Assembly (NCBI RefSeq): GCF_021729015.1
Contig: NZ_JAJQQZ010000001.1
Location: 1 to 64,000 of the forward strand
From: Halobacterium rubrum
GTDB lineage: Archaea > Halobacteriota > Halobacteria > Halobacteriales > Halobacteriaceae
DNA length: 64,000 bases
Direction of reading: 5' to 3'
A program made the position numbers and the translations under genes. Shown piece after piece: positions 5,880-63,575 of the stretch; within the stretch, counting starts at the first letter, position 1; each line of letters opens with the position of its first letter. The notes beneath the pieces are model-generated. The model saw only the letters and a list, made by a program, of their open reading frames with translations. It was not told where the DNA came from and did no database searches.

Positions 5880-5960
5880 TCAGGCGTCGAAGAAGAATCC
5901 GAACCCGGGACGCGCGGCTGGCTCGCGGCTCGTACACCCGGCGTAGGGTTCGGACGCCAT
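5880..5960 (-). CDS. Phe-rich leader peptide of pheST
   Basis: A 26-codon ORF with the C-terminal sequence GFGFFFDA: four Phe in the last seven residues, read as TTC GGA TTC TTC TTC. It opens at ATG 5960, 28 bp after a TATA-like run (5984-5992, GTTTTTGG on the minus strand), so a leaderless message starting at this ATG is likely. The stop is 14 bases before a GC-rich hairpin and 110 bases before pheS. The layout mirrors bacterial leader peptides such as the one for E. coli pheST. It could instead be a chance ORF, but the residue bias, position and promoter spacing agree. Confidence 0.6.
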   Translation of the reverse strand: MASEPYAGCTSREPAARPGFGFFFDA

Positions 5961-45974: not shown

Positions 45975-46060
45975 TAGGGGAACCCTCGGCCGGCGGCTAC
46001 GAGTGTGTGTCGGTTCGATACCCGGCGGTTTTTACTCCCGCCCACGTTACCTCGGCTTGC

Positions 46061-46135
46061 GGGCACGTAGCTCAGTTCGGACAGAGCGTTCGGCTTCTAA
46101 CCGAAATGTCGGGGGTTCGAATCCCCTCGTGCCCG
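46061..46135 (+). tRNA. tRNA-Arg (anticodon UCU)
   Basis: A 75-base cloverleaf: acceptor arms GGGCACG (46061-46067) and CGTGCCC (46128-46134) with discriminator G, D-arm GCTC/GAGC, anticodon stem TTCGG/CCGAA with loop CTTCTAA (anticodon TCT at 46096-46098), and T-arm GGGGGTTCGAATCCCC. A gtttttac TATA-like box lies about 28 bp upstream. CCA is not encoded. The 3' end from 46114 to 46137 is repeated at 46234-46257. Confidence 0.97.
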
Positions 46136-46257
46136 TATTCTGTCGCGAGCGAACGCGAGCGACGAATCGGGTGAGGGGTTCGAACCCTGGAAGTCGCAGC
46201 GACCGAGCGAAGCGAGGTCGACCGTCTTCCACCGGTTCGAATCCCCTCGTGCCCGTA
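46114..46257 (+). repeat. Duplicated tRNA-Arg 3' end (att-like)
   Basis: A 24-bp perfect direct repeat: the T-arm 3' half and acceptor of tRNA-Arg at 46114-46137 and again at 46234-46257, 120 bp apart. Between them is a related inverted GGGGTTCGAACCC near 46172-46184. This is what an integrase leaves at a tRNA gene; no integrase is present. Confidence 0.75.
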
Positions 46258-57888: not shown

Positions 57889-58083
57889 CTAGATCTCGTC
57901 GAGCAGCCACAGGACGATGAGCGCGACGACCACCAGTCCGATGAACGGCCGCGCGATGCCGAGGACCGCGGCGAGCGCGCCGACGAACGCCTCGAGGACT
58001 TCGAGTGCCAGCCACACGACGACCAGCACGAGGACGAGTTTCAGCAGGCTGTCCGTGTCGAGTGCGCCGCGTGCCCGTGACAT
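57889..58083 (-). CDS. Small two-span membrane protein
   Basis: A 64-residue protein: MSRARGALDTDSLLKLVLVL then the rest of one hydrophobic segment, a loop containing VGALAAVLGIARPF, and a second span ending LIVLWLLDEI. ATG 58083 is preferred over an earlier TTG. Small proteins of this kind (DUF7554-like) occur in many haloarchaea. Function unknown. Confidence 0.65.
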   Translation of the reverse strand: MSRARGALDTDSLLKLVLVLVVVWLALEVLEAFVGALAAVLGIARPFIGLVVVALIVLWLLDEI

Positions 58084-58182
58084 GGCCACCGGTTGCCACA
58101 CGACGGACAATAGCCTGCTGGCCATCGTGTGACACCGTGGCAGGCAACGCTTAAGCCAGTGCGTGCATTTCTCGCAGGTACG
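58084..58182 (+). promoter_or_regulatory. argG leader promoter
   Basis: TATA-like cgcttaagcc (58149-58158) lies about 30 bp before the ATG of an Arg-rich leader ORF. It is the only strong AT-rich element upstream of argG and should start RNA near 58180. The promoter of the divergent small membrane gene shares this gap. Confidence 0.55.
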
Positions 58183-58338
58183 ATGACGCCGCCGGCTCCC
58201 ACCAGCGCGCGCTCGCCGCTGTCCACCGGGAGCCGCGCGACCGCCCCACAGCCGGCGGTCGCCGACGACGACCCAGCAGGGCGCTCCGCGGTGGGCGCCG
58301 CCAGCGTGTCGCGACGACGACGACCGGGGTCCCCCTGA
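58183..58338 (+). CDS. Arg-rich leader peptide upstream of argG
   Basis: A 51-codon ORF whose end reads SVSRRRRPGSP: four consecutive Arg codons, all CGA (58312-58323), five codons before the stop. The ATG is about 30 bp after a TATA box, so the message should begin at this ORF. The stop is 86 bases before argG. Within it, ccgccggctccc (58189-58200) can pair with gggagccg (58228-58235) or agccggcgg (58250-58258), not both. The layout fits an arginine-sensing leader peptide; a chance ORF is the alternative. Confidence 0.55.
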   Translation: MTPPAPTSARSPLSTGSRATAPQPAVADDDPAGRSAVGAASVSRRRRPGSP

Positions 58339-58424
58339 CCCCTACTAGCTTCTCTCCCCAGACCCCCCTCGTCGTCCGTCGCACCGCCGTTCGACCGCCA
58401 CGACACGCTACACACACCACCCAC
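58339..58424 (+). promoter_or_regulatory. Pyrimidine-rich spacer before argG
   Basis: A C/T-rich stretch (cccctactagcttctctcccc and following) and then cacacaccacccac immediately before the argG ATG. It is unlikely to fold strongly. It contains actagctt near 58344-58351, too far upstream of the ATG for a leaderless promoter. No Shine-Dalgarno motif is seen. Confidence 0.4.
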
Positions 58425-59678
58425 ATGCCATCAGGAACCGTCGCGCTCGCCTTCTCGGGCGGGCTCGACACGACAGTCTGCGTCCCGCTGCTGAAAGAAG
58501 AGTACGGCTACGACGACGTCGTCGGCGTCACCGTCGACGTCGGCCAGCCCGACTCGGAGTTCGCCGAAGCCCACGAGACCGCCGAGGCGCTCGGCGTCGA
58601 GCACCACGTCGTCGACGCGAAGGCCGAGTTCGCCGACCTGTGTTTCGACGCCGTGCAGGCCGGCGCGACCTACCAGGGCTACCCGCTGGGCACCGCCCTC
58701 GCGCGCCCGGTCATCGCCGAGGCCATCCTCGACGTCGCCGAAAGCGAGGGCTGTACGGCGCTCGCGCACGGCTGCACGGGGAAGGGCAACGACCAGTTGC
58801 GCTTCGAGGCCGTCTGGCGCGCCAGCGACCTCGACGTGCTCGCGCCGGTCCGCGAACTCGGGCTGACCCGCGAGTGGGAGATCGACTACGCCGACGAGAA
58901 GGGGCTGCCCGTCGAGGCCGGCAACGAGGGCGAGTGGAGCATCGACACGAACCTCTGGAGCCGCTCGATCGAGGGCGGCCAGCTCGAGGACCCGGGCTAC
59001 CAGCCCCCCGAGGACATCTACGACTGGACCGACGCGCCGAGTGACGAGACCGAGACCGTCGACATCACGTTCGAGGCCGGTGAGCCGGTCGCCGTCGACG
59101 GGTCGGCGATGGAGCCGGTGCCCCTCATCGAGTACCTGAACGACCTCGCCGGGAGCTACGGCGTCGGCCGCACGGACATGATGGAGGACCGCATGCTCGG
59201 GCTGAAGGTCCGCGAGAACTACGAGCACCCGGCCGCGACCACGCTCCTCGCGGCACACGAGGCACTGGAAGGGCTCGTCCTGACGAAAGACGAGCGCGAC
59301 TTCACCGAGGACGTGAGCCAGCAGTGGGCCCAGAAGGCCTACGAGGGGCTCGTCGACCACCCGCTGATGGACGCCCTGAACGGCTACTTCGCCGAGACCC
59401 AGTCGAAGGTCACCGGCACGGTCACCATCAAGTTCGAGGGCGGGCAGGCCCGTCCGGTCGCCCGCGAGAGCGAACACGCCGTCTACTCGGCGGCCGCCGC
59501 CTCCTTCGACACGGAGACCGTGAACGGCATCGAGCAGGCCGACGCCACCGGCGTCGCGAAGTACCACGGCTTCCAGTCCCGTCTGGCGAACGCCAGCAAG
59601 CCCGAACTGAAGACCGACGGCGGCCCGGGCGGTGAGGCGGGCGCTGGAGTAACCGAGGACGGGGCGAGCGACGAATGA
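58425..59678 (+). CDS. argG: Argininosuccinate synthase
   Basis: A 417-residue enzyme joining citrulline and aspartate with ATP in the last steps of arginine synthesis. The PP-loop is ALAFSGGLDTTVCVPLLKEE near the start. Other marks are YPLGTALARPVIAE, LAHGCTGKGNDQLRFE, WSIDTNLWSRSIEGG and MMEDRMLGLKVREN. Its last four bases overlap the argH ATG, so translation is coupled. Confidence 0.97.
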   Translation: MPSGTVALAFSGGLDTTVCVPLLKEEYGYDDVVGVTVDVGQPDSEFAEAHETAEALGVEHHVVDAKAEFADLCFDAVQAGATYQGYPLGTALARPVIAEAILDVAESEGCTALAHGCTGKGNDQLRFEAVWRASDLDVLAPVRELGLTREWEIDYADEKGLPVEAGNEGEWSIDTNLWSRSIEGGQLEDPGYQPPEDIYDWTDAPSDETETVDITFEAGEPVAVDGSAMEPVPLIEYLNDLAGSYGVGRTDMMEDRMLGLKVRENYEHPAATTLLAAHEALEGLVLTKDERDFTEDVSQQWAQKAYEGLVDHPLMDALNGYFAETQSKVTGTVTIKFEGGQARPVARESEHAVYSAAAASFDTETVNGIEQADATGVAKYHGFQSRLANASKPELKTDGGPGGEAGAGVTEDGASDE

Positions 59679-61183
59679 GCGGCGGGGGAGAGGGCGACGC
59701 AGCGGGCGGCGACGCCGGCGACAGCGATGGCGCCGACGACCACAGCGGCGACACGGTGGTCCGCCGCGACCGTTTCAGCGGCGGCCCCGCGCGCTCGTTC
59801 CTCTCCTCGATGGACGCCGACGGCCGCATCTTCGCCGCCGACCTCGCGGTGGACCGCGCGCACGTCGTGATGCTCGCCGAGCAGGGAATCGTCGACGACG
59901 ACGAGGCCGCGACCATCCTGGACGCGCTCGCCGACGTCGAGCAGGCGGGCTTCGACGCCCTGCCCGACGGCGAGGACGTCCACGAGGCCATCGAGACAGC
60001 CGTCGTGGACCAGGTGGGCAGCGTCGGCGGGAAGATGCACACCGCGCGCTCCCGCAACGACGAGGTCGCGGCCTGCATCCGGTACCGCCTGCGCGAGGAC
60101 CTGCTGGACGCAGTCGAGGCGGTGCTGGCGCTGCGCGGCGCGCTCGCCGACGTGGCCGAGGCGGAGGCCGACACCGTGATGCCCGGGTTCACGCACCTCC
60201 AGCCCGCCCAGCCCACGACCGTCGCGCACTGGGCGCTCTCCTACGAGGGGACGCTCGCCCGCGACACCGGCCGGCTGCTGGACGCCTACGACCGCGTCGA
60301 CGAGTCGCCGCTCGGCGCGGCGGCGTTCGCCGGCACCACGTTCGACGTGGACCGCGAGCGCACGGCCGACCTGCTGGGGTTCGACGGCGTCGTGACGAAC
60401 GCGACCGACGCCGCCGCGAGCCGCGACTTCCTGCTGGAGGCCGTGGCCGCGCTGTCGTCGGTCGCCGTGACGTGCTCGGGGCTGGCCGAGGACGTGGTGT
60501 TCTTCGCCAACCGGGGGTTCGTCGACGTGAGCGACGACTACGCCTCGACGTCCTCCATCATGCCCCAGAAGAAGAACCCGGACACGATGGAGCTGGTGCG
60601 CGCGACCGCCGGCGACGCGCTCGGCGCCTACCAGGGCCTCGCGACGACGCTGAAGGGGCTGCCCCGCGCCTACAACCGCGACCTGCAGCGCGCGACCGGC
60701 CACGCGTGGACGGCCGCCGACAGCGTGACGAGCGCCGTCGAGGTGGCTGCGGGCGCCGTCGCGACGGCCGACTGGCCCGCCGAGGACCTCGAAGCCGCCG
60801 CCGGCGAGGGGTTCTCGACGGCGACGGGCGTCGCGGACGCGCTCGCAGCGGCGGGGCTGCCGTTCCGCACCGCGCACGAAATAGTTGCTCTGGCTGCGGA
60901 GAAAGGTGCCGACCTCGACACCGTCGACACCGCCGCCCAGGAGGTCACGGGCGAGTCGCTGTCGGACCTCGTGGACCCCGAACTCGTGGCCACGGCGCTC
61001 GACCCCGTGGAGAGCGTCGCGCAGCGCGACTCGGTCGGCGGTCCCGCTCCTGCAGCCGTGCAGGCGGCACTGGGCGACGTGCTGGACGGCATCGACGCCG
61101 ACGAGGCGACTGTCGCAGACGAGCGCGAGGCGCTGGCCGACGCCGCCGACGACCTCGCCGCGGAGGTGGCCACGTATGTCTGA
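59675..61183 (+). CDS. argH: Argininosuccinate lyase
   Basis: A 502-residue lyase splitting argininosuccinate to arginine and fumarate. The start is Gly/Asp-rich. Signatures are IETAVVDQVGSVGGKMHTARSRNDEVA in part, GFTHLQPAQPTTVAHW, and the superfamily signature SSIMPQKKNPDTMELVRA with its catalytic Ser. ATG 59675 overlaps argG. Confidence 0.96.
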   Translation: MSGGGEGDAAGGDAGDSDGADDHSGDTVVRRDRFSGGPARSFLSSMDADGRIFAADLAVDRAHVVMLAEQGIVDDDEAATILDALADVEQAGFDALPDGEDVHEAIETAVVDQVGSVGGKMHTARSRNDEVAACIRYRLREDLLDAVEAVLALRGALADVAEAEADTVMPGFTHLQPAQPTTVAHWALSYEGTLARDTGRLLDAYDRVDESPLGAAAFAGTTFDVDRERTADLLGFDGVVTNATDAAASRDFLLEAVAALSSVAVTCSGLAEDVVFFANRGFVDVSDDYASTSSIMPQKKNPDTMELVRATAGDALGAYQGLATTLKGLPRAYNRDLQRATGHAWTAADSVTSAVEVAAGAVATADWPAEDLEAAAGEGFSTATGVADALAAAGLPFRTAHEIVALAAEKGADLDTVDTAAQEVTGESLSDLVDPELVATALDPVESVAQRDSVGGPAPAAVQAALGDVLDGIDADEATVADEREALADAADDLAAEVATYV

Positions 61184-61406: not shown

Positions 61407-61571
61407 ATGACAGCCTGCACCGAGTGCGGGGCCGAGCTATCCCTGCACGACGACCTCGAAGTCGGCGAAATCGTCGACTGCAGTACGTGTGGTACCGAAC
61501 TGGAAGTACTCGAGACCGCTCCCCCGAGCCTCGACCGAGCGCCGGAGCTCGCCGAGGACTGGGGGGAGTGA
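61407..61571 (+). CDS. lysW: Amino-group carrier protein LysW
   Basis: A 54-residue carrier. Four cysteines in CTECG (C4, C7) and CSTCG (C25, C28) bind zinc, and the C-terminal EDWGE ends in the glutamate (E54) whose gamma-carboxyl is linked to the amino group of the substrate during lysine or arginine synthesis. Conserved length and ending make the assignment firm. Its stop is one base before the TTG of argX. Confidence 0.95.
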   Translation: MTACTECGAELSLHDDLEVGEIVDCSTCGTELEVLETAPPSLDRAPELAEDWGE

Positions 61572-61572
61572 G

Positions 61573-62502
61573 TTGCGCGTCGGATTACTCTACTCCCGGA
61601 TTCGCCGCGACGAGAAGCTGCTGCTGGGCGAACTCCGGGAGCGCGGCCACGACGTCGAGAAGATCGACGTGCGCGAGCACGGCTTCGACCTCGACGGCAC
61701 CGACGCCCCCCTGATGGACTGCGACCTGGTCGTCGACCGCTGTCTGGCGACCAGCCGCTCCGTCCACCTCACAGAGGCCTGCGAGACGTACGGCGTGCCG
61801 GTCGTGAACAGCGCCGACACCGCCGCCGTCTGCGCGAACAAGGCCAAGACCAGCCTCGCGCTCGCGGACGCCGGCGTCCCCACGCCGGAGACGACCGTCG
61901 CGTTCACGCCCGAGAGCGCGCTCGACGCCATCGAGGACTTCGGCTACCCCTGCGTGCTGAAGCCCGTCGTGGGCTCCTGGGGCCGCCTCATGGCGAAAGT
62001 CGAGTCCGAGAGCGCCGCCGAGGCCATCCTCGAGCACAAGGACACGCTGGGCCACTACGAGCACAGCGTCTTCTACGTCCAGGAGTACGTCGAGAAGCCC
62101 GGCCGTGACGTGCGCGTACTCGCCGCCGACGGCGAGCCAATCGCTGCGATGACCCGGTCGGGCGACCACTGGCTCACGAACGCCGCGAAGGGCGGCGAGG
62201 TGAACGCCCTCGACGTCGACGACGAGCTCGCCGAAGTCGTCGCCGATGCCAGCGACGCGGTCGGTGGCGGCTTGCTGGGTGTTGATGCGATGGAGCGCGG
62301 GGCGCCACGCGCCCCGGAGGACGCGACCGGCGACGACGTCGAGCCGGGAGCCGAGGGCGGCTACACCGTCCACGAGGTCAACCACACGGTCGAGTTCAAG
62401 GCGCTGGACGAGGCCGTCGACGTCGACGTTCCGGCAGCCGTCGTGGACTGGCTCGAGGCGACGGCCGCCAGCGAGACGACGGGACTGGAGGTGACCGCGT
62501 GA
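61573..62502 (+). CDS. argX: LysW-glutamate ligase ArgX (LysX-type)
   Basis: A 309-residue ATP-grasp ligase attaching glutamate (or 2-aminoadipate) to LysW. It starts LRVGLLYSRIRRDEKLLLGE at a TTG; the ATP-grasp core has YPCVLKPVVGSWGRLMAKVE, FYVQEYVEKPGRDVRVL and HEVNHTVEFKAL. Because argG and argH sit just upstream and argC and argB follow, arginine synthesis is most likely. Residues about 243-255 (RGAPRAPEDATGDDVEPG) interrupt a conserved region with a hairpin-bearing insertion. Confidence 0.92.
   Translation: MRVGLLYSRIRRDEKLLLGELRERGHDVEKIDVREHGFDLDGTDAPLMDCDLVVDRCLATSRSVHLTEACETYGVPVVNSADTAAVCANKAKTSLALADAGVPTPETTVAFTPESALDAIEDFGYPCVLKPVVGSWGRLMAKVESESAAEAILEHKDTLGHYEHSVFYVQEYVEKPGRDVRVLAADGEPIAAMTRSGDHWLTNAAKGGEVNALDVDDELAEVVADASDAVGGGLLGVDAMERGAPRAPEDATGDDVEPGAEGGYTVHEVNHTVEFKALDEAVDVDVPAAVVDWLEATAASETTGLEVTA
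62296..62330 (+). repeat. Reduced coding hairpin repeat inside argX
   Basis: GGGGCGC-CAC-GCGCCCC (62299-62315) keeps the 7-bp stem and CAC loop of the helicase copies, with GGAGGACGCGACCGG following. The second hairpin is missing. It encodes RGAPRAPEDATG in the same register as EAPRASERSSGR. Confidence 0.65.
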
Positions 62503-63575
62503 TGGCGGCCACCCAGACAGACACAGCCGCGGCGGACGCCGAGGCGGCGACTGCGTCGGTCGTCGGCGCCAGCGGCTTCGCGGGCGGCGAACTGCTGCGC
62601 CTGCTCGCCGGCCACCCGGGCTTCGAGCTCGCGCAGGCGACGAGCCGCGAGCACGCGAACCGCACGGTCGGAAGCGTCCACCCGAACCTCCGCTCGCTCG
62701 ACCTGCGGTTCGCCGACCCCGGCGACCTCGACGGCGTGGACGTGCTGTTCGCGGCGGCGCCCCACGGCGTCGCGATGGAGCACGTCGACGAGTGGCGCGA
62801 ACTCGCCGACACGGTCGTCGACCTGAGCGCGGACTTCCGCCTCGACTCGGTGGAGCAGTACGACGAGTGGTACGACGGCCACAGCGCACCCAAGCACCTC
62901 GCCGACGCCGTCTACGCGCTCCCCGAGCTCTCCCGCGGGGACCTCGCGGGCGCCGACCTGATTGCGAGCGGCGGCTGCAACGCCACTGCCACGATACTCG
63001 GCCTGCTCCCGCTGCAGGAAGCAGGGCTACTCGAAGGTGCGCAGGTCGTCGTCGACGTCAAGGTCGGCTCCTCGGAGGGCGGCGCGGGCGGCGGCCCGGC
63101 GTCCTCGCACCCCGAGCGCTCCGGGGTCGTCCGGCCGTACGCGCCGACCGGCCACCGCCACGAGGCCGAGATCGAGCAGGCGCTCGGCCTGTCGGTGTCG
63201 TTCACGGCGCACGCCGTCGACATGGTGCGGGGCGCGAGCGCGACCTGCCACATTTTCCCGGAGGAGACGCCCTCGAAGAGCGACCTCTGGGCGGCGTTCC
63301 GGGAGACGTACGGCGACGAGCCGTTCGTGGAGACGGTCGCCGGCGGCAGCGGCGCGTACCGCTACCCCGAGCCGAAGGTCGTCGCCGGAACGAACGGCGC
63401 CGAGGTCGGCTTCGAGGTCGACGAGTCGAACGACCGCATCGTGACCTTCGCAGCCATCGACAACGTCGTGAAGGGGTCGGCCGGGCAGGCCGTCCACGCC
63501 GCGAACCTCGCGCTCGGCCACGAGGAGACCGCGGGCCTCGACCAGTTCGGGCTACACCCGGTGGGGAGCCCATGA
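62502..63575 (+). CDS. argC: N-acetyl-gamma-glutamyl-phosphate reductase-type enzyme (LysW-linked)
   Basis: A 357-residue reductase that converts the LysW-bound acyl phosphate to the semialdehyde. GASGFAGGELLRLLAGHP binds NADP, SGGCNATATI holds the catalytic Cys, and HAVDMVRGASATCHI and AIDNVVKGSAGQA follow. ATG 62502 overlaps the argX stop (TGATG); a GTG one codon earlier is less likely. Confidence 0.94.
   Translation: MAATQTDTAAADAEAATASVVGASGFAGGELLRLLAGHPGFELAQATSREHANRTVGSVHPNLRSLDLRFADPGDLDGVDVLFAAAPHGVAMEHVDEWRELADTVVDLSADFRLDSVEQYDEWYDGHSAPKHLADAVYALPELSRGDLAGADLIASGGCNATATILGLLPLQEAGLLEGAQVVVDVKVGSSEGGAGGGPASSHPERSGVVRPYAPTGHRHEAEIEQALGLSVSFTAHAVDMVRGASATCHIFPEETPSKSDLWAAFRETYGDEPFVETVAGGSGAYRYPEPKVVAGTNGAEVGFEVDESNDRIVTFAAIDNVVKGSAGQAVHAANLALGHEETAGLDQFGLHPVGSP

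Follow-up and report, generated by a model that had tools for sequence, protein, structure and literature searches.

A conserved arginine-codon leader with a stop-codon hairpin lies upstream of argG in haloarchaea and suggests ribosome-mediated attenuation

In the window analyzed here, the whole 64,000-nucleotide stretch of Halobacterium rubrum DNA, argG stands first in a row of arg genes (Table 1). Within this row, the ORF matching an ArgX/LysX-type ligase scores 274.0 bits against TIGR02144, slightly below the cut-off of 275.6, and its true start probably lies further in. The CTTAAG box is the sole promoter seen ahead of argG, no second TATA-like box being seen between the leader ORF and argG in the window genome. 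The earlier note had described, behind this box, a 51-codon ORF with four consecutive CGA codons near its end, 86 bases before argG. Both the ORF and the codon run are present, with 32 nt from the TTAA of the box to the A of the leader ATG, and we propose that the transcript starts ~25 to 30 nt past the TATA box, which would leave the ORF nearly leaderless. The encoded peptide reads MTPPAPTSAR...SVSRRRRPGSP, and the CGA run is followed by four codons and the stop (CCG GGG TCC CCC TGA). Two structures that the earlier note did not mention lie here: a perfect hairpin, GGGGTC-CCCCT-GACCCC, which contains the stop codon, and an outer helix, which encloses this hairpin in the fold of the window leader (z -3.70). 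Six short ATG ORFs on the two strands of the window have a TATA at leaderless spacing, and only the argG leader among them has a stop hairpin. A search of positions 58000-58500 against Rfam returned nothing at curated score and only two sub-threshold lncRNA matches.

Table 1. Coordinates of the argG leader, the arg genes, and other features of the window
Feature	Position	Strand	Basis or remark
Phe leader of pheST, MASEPYAGCTSREPAARPGFGFFFDA*	5880..5960	-	
tRNA-Arg, anticodon TCT	46060-46136	+	sole tRNA found in window
TATA-type box CTTAAG	58150..58155	+	sequence inspection
Near-leaderless leader ORF, 51 codons, MTPPAPTSARSPLSTGSRATAPQPAVADDDPAGRSAVGAASVSRRRRPGSP*	58183..58338	+	counterparts at 61/68 argG loci
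Hairpin 1, 5' arm CGGCTCCC	58193..58200	+	arm complementarity above swapped controls, 57 leaders
Hairpin 1, 3' arm GGGAGCCG	58228..58235	+	58250-58258 is the rival partner of the 5' region
Outer helix, 5' strand AGCGTGTCG, leading into Arg codons	58303..58311	+	
Four in-frame CGA (Arg) codons, proposed sensing codons	58312..58323	+	
Stop-codon hairpin, TGA inside at 58336-58338	58326..58342	+	covariation, 49 matches (46 distinct)
G-poor stretch 3' of hairpin	58343..58372	+	
Outer helix, 3' strand CGACACGCT, 15 nt ahead of argG start codon	58401..58409	+	
argG, argininosuccinate synthase, regulated gene	58425..59678	+	
argH	59675..61183	+	named from operon order; argH-sized ORF
LysW/ArgW carrier protein	61407..61571	+	TIGR01206 above cut-off
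ORF with ArgX/LysX-type ligase	61489..62502	+	TIGR00768 above cut-off
argC	62499..63575	+	TIGR01850 above cut-off

We compared argG and its upstream region in 58 haloarchaeal genomes in which argG was properly matched, out of 59 searched (G033, which lacks such a match, is excluded from the counts), and at 10 further haloarchaeal loci. A counterpart of the leader is found at 61 of these 68 loci (52/58 genomes and 9/10 further loci), and the Arg-rich CGA leader described in the earlier note is thus conserved in haloarchaeal argG upstream regions. It occurs in 13 of 16 families and in all 26 genomes of the window's family; its carriers include Haloferax marisrubri, Haloarcula amylolytica, Halobaculum litoreum, Halogranum amylolyticum, and Halosimplex aquaticum, and L009 is the leader locus of a Haloferax species. 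No leader was found at 7 of the 68 loci (L013 and L146-L151), and families f2, f10, and f12 (6 genomes) have none upstream of argG. MAG QS_4_69_34 has two argG loci, L015 with the leader and L013 without it; contamination or a copy acquired from elsewhere may explain the second. In a comparable scan of other archaea, such an ORF was found at 0 of 26 argG loci.

Most of the leaders (55/61) were chosen by a rule, namely at least two Arg in the last 12 residues plus a stem of at least 4 at the stop, while six (L012, L101, L108, L118, L124, and L126) were set by hand. As the rule demands both Arg residues and a stop hairpin, it inflates the counts of these two but leaves codon choice and frame free. 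Of the 58 leaders evaluated, 57 have the Arg-codon motif in the frame set by the first ATG past the TATA, where chance would give about one-third, relatedness aside. For this test, a broad TATA-like pattern served to pick the next ATG downstream, and 3 of the 61 leaders were omitted. Leader ORFs range from 20 to 57 codons, that of L124 starts with GTG, and in most relatives a TATA-like box lies 28 to 33 nt ahead of the leader ATG. The ORF is conserved in position, start spacing, and frame, and its translation is predicted. In 19 of the 61 leaders a second TATA is found downstream, close to argG, so the leader there would control only part of expression. Two-promoter genomes (L117, L119, L121, L009, L037, L123, L130, L131, and others) also carry a partly conserved block, TAGGCATCTCT...AAGAATTTAT, within the last 100 nt before argG, at and ahead of the argG-proximal TATA; this block may be a regulator site.

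The earlier note had supposed CGA to be little used, rightly, as it makes up 13 of the 307 Arg codons across 12 window genes. Within the last 8 codons ahead of the hairpin, however, CGA accounts for 175 of 221 Arg codons (61 leaders), compared with 32 of 163 in the leader body. This excess has a Fisher P of 3e-78 versus window genes and 3e-32 versus the leader body, values that are indicative only, as the sequences are related. One leader, L130, has CGG in place of CGA. With little Asp plus Glu (5.3%) and much Ala, Ser, Arg, Thr, and Pro, the leader body differs from haloarchaeal proteins at large. The idea that the run is rare as DNA was rejected: (CGA)4 occurs 6 times in the window versus 0.5 expected from shuffles, and CGACGACGACGACC has 35 copies genome-wide, an abundance that presumably comes mostly from GAC-rich coding sequence.

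The stop codon overlaps the hairpin in 56 of the 61 leaders, and in the other five (L101, L108, L126, L012, and L124) it lies at the hairpin end or a few codons beyond, with the hairpin retained. Because some hairpin arms were out of register in a MAFFT alignment of the 61 leader ends (A1), a covariance model of the leader end, R1, was built from 22 in-register sequences (A2), and pairs were counted on its matches (A3). R1 recovered 49 of the 68 argG loci. Across these matches (46 distinct), 94.2% of stop-hairpin cells are paired, and double-change cells number 51, where shuffles give 21.1 and slid controls no more than 3. Among 116 genomes of the class, 36 were matched, with exactly one match each, and in all 17 matched genomes with a known argG position the match lies just upstream of argG. 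The other 80 genomes were unmatched, an absence that means little because R1 has strict filters and represents one hairpin type; 37 non-haloarchaeal loci gave no match. The 30 nt past the hairpin are 38% C, 29% T, 19% A, and 15% G (61 leaders), and no constant T run was found there as a rule in the same set.

The earlier note had also observed that a segment near the 5' end of the leader can pair with either of two downstream partners. Both pairings exist (58193-58200 with 58228-58235 and 58189-58197 with 58250-58258), while the implied role as a switch finds no support. The counterpart of this 5' pairing in relatives is an early hairpin within the ORF that beats swapped controls, with arm complementarity of 20.3 versus 17.1 +/- 0.36 when 5' arms are swapped (57 leaders). 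Neither the 5' arm region with sequence downstream (14.73 versus 15.49 swapped) nor the ORF body with the 5' arm of the stop hairpin (12.47 versus 12.86 swapped) pairs in excess of the controls. A switch through either pairing finds no support, both being below swapped controls, and no separate antiterminator was found among these two, though another pairing may act as one.

In the window's family, the Arg-codon stretch pairs with sequence 3' of the stop hairpin, just before argG, forming the outer helix. Here the pairing scores 21.9, versus 19.25 +/- 0.69 in swapped controls (maximum of 200 swaps, 21.05). Other single-promoter genomes show it more weakly (18.46 versus 16.31 +/- 0.76), and in the two-promoter class it lacks support (17.12 versus 16.26 +/- 0.59); the near-identical L092, L094, L095, and L136 are omitted from the swap tests. 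The stop hairpin and the pairing of the Arg stretch with argG-proximal sequence are more telling than the 5' pairing.

From the argG leader and a Phe leader of pheST, the earlier note had suggested a general amino-acid leader system. Our scans bear this out at pheS and, unforeseen, at ilvB, with end-product codons clustered in each case: Arg at argG, Ile/Val at ilvB, and Phe at pheS. A leader built like that of argG is present at 45 of 53 ilvB loci (drawn from L264-L269 and L289-L342, with L342 omitted as it is from the same genome as L296), a count that includes a few weak ones, such as L320, L326, and L330. The window genome's own ilvB leader lies on contig 4 (G000), near 220,300. These leaders end in IVGA, IIVGA, IVGV, or similar. 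All 45 use the Val codon GTA, which makes up 9 of the 507 Val codons of window genes; the codon ahead of it is ATT in 27 and ATC in 14. Most have their stop within a hairpin, e.g., TGTAGGGG-CGTAGC-CCCCTACA, and the arms reach 8 bp. As GTA is often inside a hairpin arm, pairing may add to this codon choice.

At pheS, a Phe-rich leader was found at 26 of 30 loci (L152-L181), or 24 of 30 in a stricter scan. It has an early hairpin, CCGAACCC/GGGTTCGG, that ends against the Phe codons, and a stop hairpin of the argG type is not present. The arms of the early hairpin resemble each other too closely across species for the swap comparison to discriminate (23.3 versus 22.4 +/- 0.5 swapped). Besides GGGTTCGG, the 5' arm CCGAACCC has perhaps a second partner, GTTCGG, close to pheS, an arrangement that looks like a two-state switch. 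Across up to 8 genomes of the genus, scans of other genes, run-based and by stop hairpin, detected no leader at tRNA-synthetases of PF00579 and PF00587, at chorismate-binding enzymes of PF00425 (a set including the trpE type), or at hisG, and yielded one unrelated-looking match, L191. The run-based scan is insensitive to mixed runs and missed ilvB; as a control, the stop-hairpin scan recovered 50 of the 68 argG loci. The chorismate/trpE negative is weak because trpE need not head its operon.

Taken together, the comparisons lead us to propose that the leader acts in cis on the arg operon as a ribosome-mediated arginine attenuator, a reading to which we assign a probability of about 0.77. The stop hairpin begins a few nucleotides past the CGA codons and offers an RNA structure that a stalled ribosome could change; with CGA in the A site, the 5' arm of the hairpin is a few nucleotides ahead of the ribosome. 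When Arg-tRNA is plentiful, the ribosome would pass the rare CGA codons, terminate at the stop within the hairpin, and depart. The stop hairpin, together with the outer helix in the window's family, would then form, and argG expression would be low. When Arg-tRNA is scarce, the ribosome would stall on the CGA codons and, given the usual ribosome footprint, would cover the 5' arm of the hairpin and the 5' strand of the outer helix, so that neither structure forms. Scarcity of charged CGA-tRNA would thus keep the structures open, and the arg operon would be expressed. Stalling, its effect on the stop hairpin, and the direction and output of the response are predicted here for the argG leader; we infer that open structures mean expression because the regulated genes make arginine.

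As the output of such an attenuator, we favor premature transcription termination over control of argG translation. Termination would fit the two-promoter genomes because the hairpin stays there though argG has its own start. It would also fit the hairpin-linked terminator reported in Haloferax, where the account of terminators gives 59% termination for one tested hairpin (PMC7237163). Counting against it is that a T stretch is missing as a rule, since T stretches are the main signal reported there for Haloferax intergenic terminators (PMC7237163). Termination of the aCPSF1/FttA type has been suggested to compete with ribosomes (PMC8116511). If control is instead translational, the Arg-codon stretch of an unstalled leader would pair upstream of argG and hinder ribosome loading, and stalling would free it, in the way suggested for the actinobacterial LEU element. 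The usual lack of a T stretch after the hairpin agrees with such control, and so does the outer helix, whose 3' strand lies 15 nt before argG; in the window's family, where swaps support it, this adjoining helix favors translational control. The helix is weaker beyond that family and unsupported in the two-promoter class, yet the stop hairpin is kept there, and we regard the translational variant as possible but doubtful. Termination and translational control may also act together.

The remaining explanations fare less well. Nascent-peptide arrest, in which the peptide and free arginine would stall the ribosome at or near the stop, might account for the common C-termini RRPGS and RPGL. However, the sequence that links the Arg run to the stop is not constant (RRRAGS, RRRGGS, RRRTGR, RRRAP, RRGD, RPRPR), the synonymous choice of CGA is conserved although a peptide sensor has no need of it, and the ilvB leader follows the same plan at the RNA level with another peptide; we consider arrest unlikely. 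In the fungal arginine attenuator peptide, which together with free arginine halts the ribosome at the stop or close to it, the arrest sequence is conserved, whereas argG leaders keep nothing constant near their end but the Arg codons. The stop hairpins are palindromic, with arms that can be 8 bp at ilvB, and could be read as a DNA operator of a transcription factor, with the ORF incidental. This is very improbable given the frame (57/58), the pathway-matched amino acids, the rare codons, the compensated arm changes, and the position of the palindrome well within the transcript. Just as improbable is that the leader ORF encodes a separate functional small protein: it has its own promoter, argG has its own TATA in 19/61, and a small-protein alternative is mentioned in the treatment of Haloferax uORFs (PMC4983044), but the sequence and length of its body vary, Asp plus Glu amount to 5.3% there, and only the end of the ORF is conserved. 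A chance ORF in GC-rich DNA, for which the 35 copies of CGACGACGACGACC might speak, has a negligible probability in view of the conserved frame and codons and the 0/26 count at non-haloarchaeal archaeal argG loci; on this comparative evidence, the leader ORF is not a chance ORF.

Leader-peptide attenuation is textbook bacterial biology, and its classical form needs transcription-translation coupling. Archaea have a eukaryote-like RNA polymerase and different terminators. In the E. coli trp/his and pheST (pheM) attenuators, the leader peptide contains end-product codons, and an early hairpin is followed by a later one that acts as a switch. The argG leader is similar in its end-product codons, its early hairpin within the ORF, and its later hairpin as the proposed switch, and differs in having its stop inside the hairpin and no separate antiterminator identified. 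Compared with the trp type, a constant T run is missing and a competing antiterminator was not found; in function, the leader should resemble a leader-peptide attenuator. Mycobacterial leaderless polycysteine attenuators were reportedly described by Canestrari et al. in 2020. Like the argG leader, these are leaderless short ORFs with contiguous codons for one amino acid, and they are described as supply-responsive (PMC9031893); they differ in amino acid and domain. Where the 2005 analysis treats mycobacterial cys leaders, it gives no conserved hairpins for them (PMC1262725).

The same analysis describes actinobacterial ilvB leaders as short ORFs with Ile/Val/Leu codons that overlap a candidate terminator hairpin (PMC1262725). 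Both these and the haloarchaeal leaders have a short ORF with codons at or against a GC hairpin, ahead of an operon for the same amino acid, and ilvB is targeted in both. The actinobacterial hairpins are followed by poly-U runs in that description (PMC1262725), whereas the haloarchaeal hairpins precede G-poor sequence, usually without a T run. The haloarchaeal leaders are further set apart by their occurrence in Archaea, their near-leaderless position behind a TATA box, the stop in the hairpin, and the rare codons. In the LEU element of leuA, as in the argG leader, a codon run forms the base of a structure by pairing immediately ahead of the regulated gene; as outlined there, the partner in the LEU element is a Shine-Dalgarno box and a pseudoknot is added (PMC1262725), while no Shine-Dalgarno is seen upstream of argG.

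In Haloferax volcanii, a table of uORFs in long 5' UTRs lists 16, all with a low isoelectric point, and uORFs with mapped starts include one of 26 aa before pheS (HVO_2948) and one of 23 aa before a Trp-tRNA ligase (PMC4983044). argG (HVO_0049) is not listed in this table, and the accompanying section proposes no amino-acid sensing (PMC4983044). In the open-access papers searched, no precedent was found for amino-acid attenuation by leader peptides in Archaea.

We consider it probable that the leaders of argG (Arg), ilvB (Ile/Val), and pheST (Phe) form a general haloarchaeal family of leader-peptide attenuators, independently built and read out through archaeal factor-dependent termination, which would be the first case of ribosome-mediated attenuation in Archaea. 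Within this reading, its members would share near-leaderless ORFs whose last codons specify the end product, and at argG and ilvB these codons would be rare and the stop would lie in a hairpin whose formation requires a ribosome that has not stalled. Leader attenuators may account for some unannotated small ORFs. Found class-wide in a genetically tractable group, and matched at another operon, ilvB, the argG leader has a clear hairpin and rare codons as proposed sensors, which would make coupling, stalling, and termination in archaea testable by point mutations.
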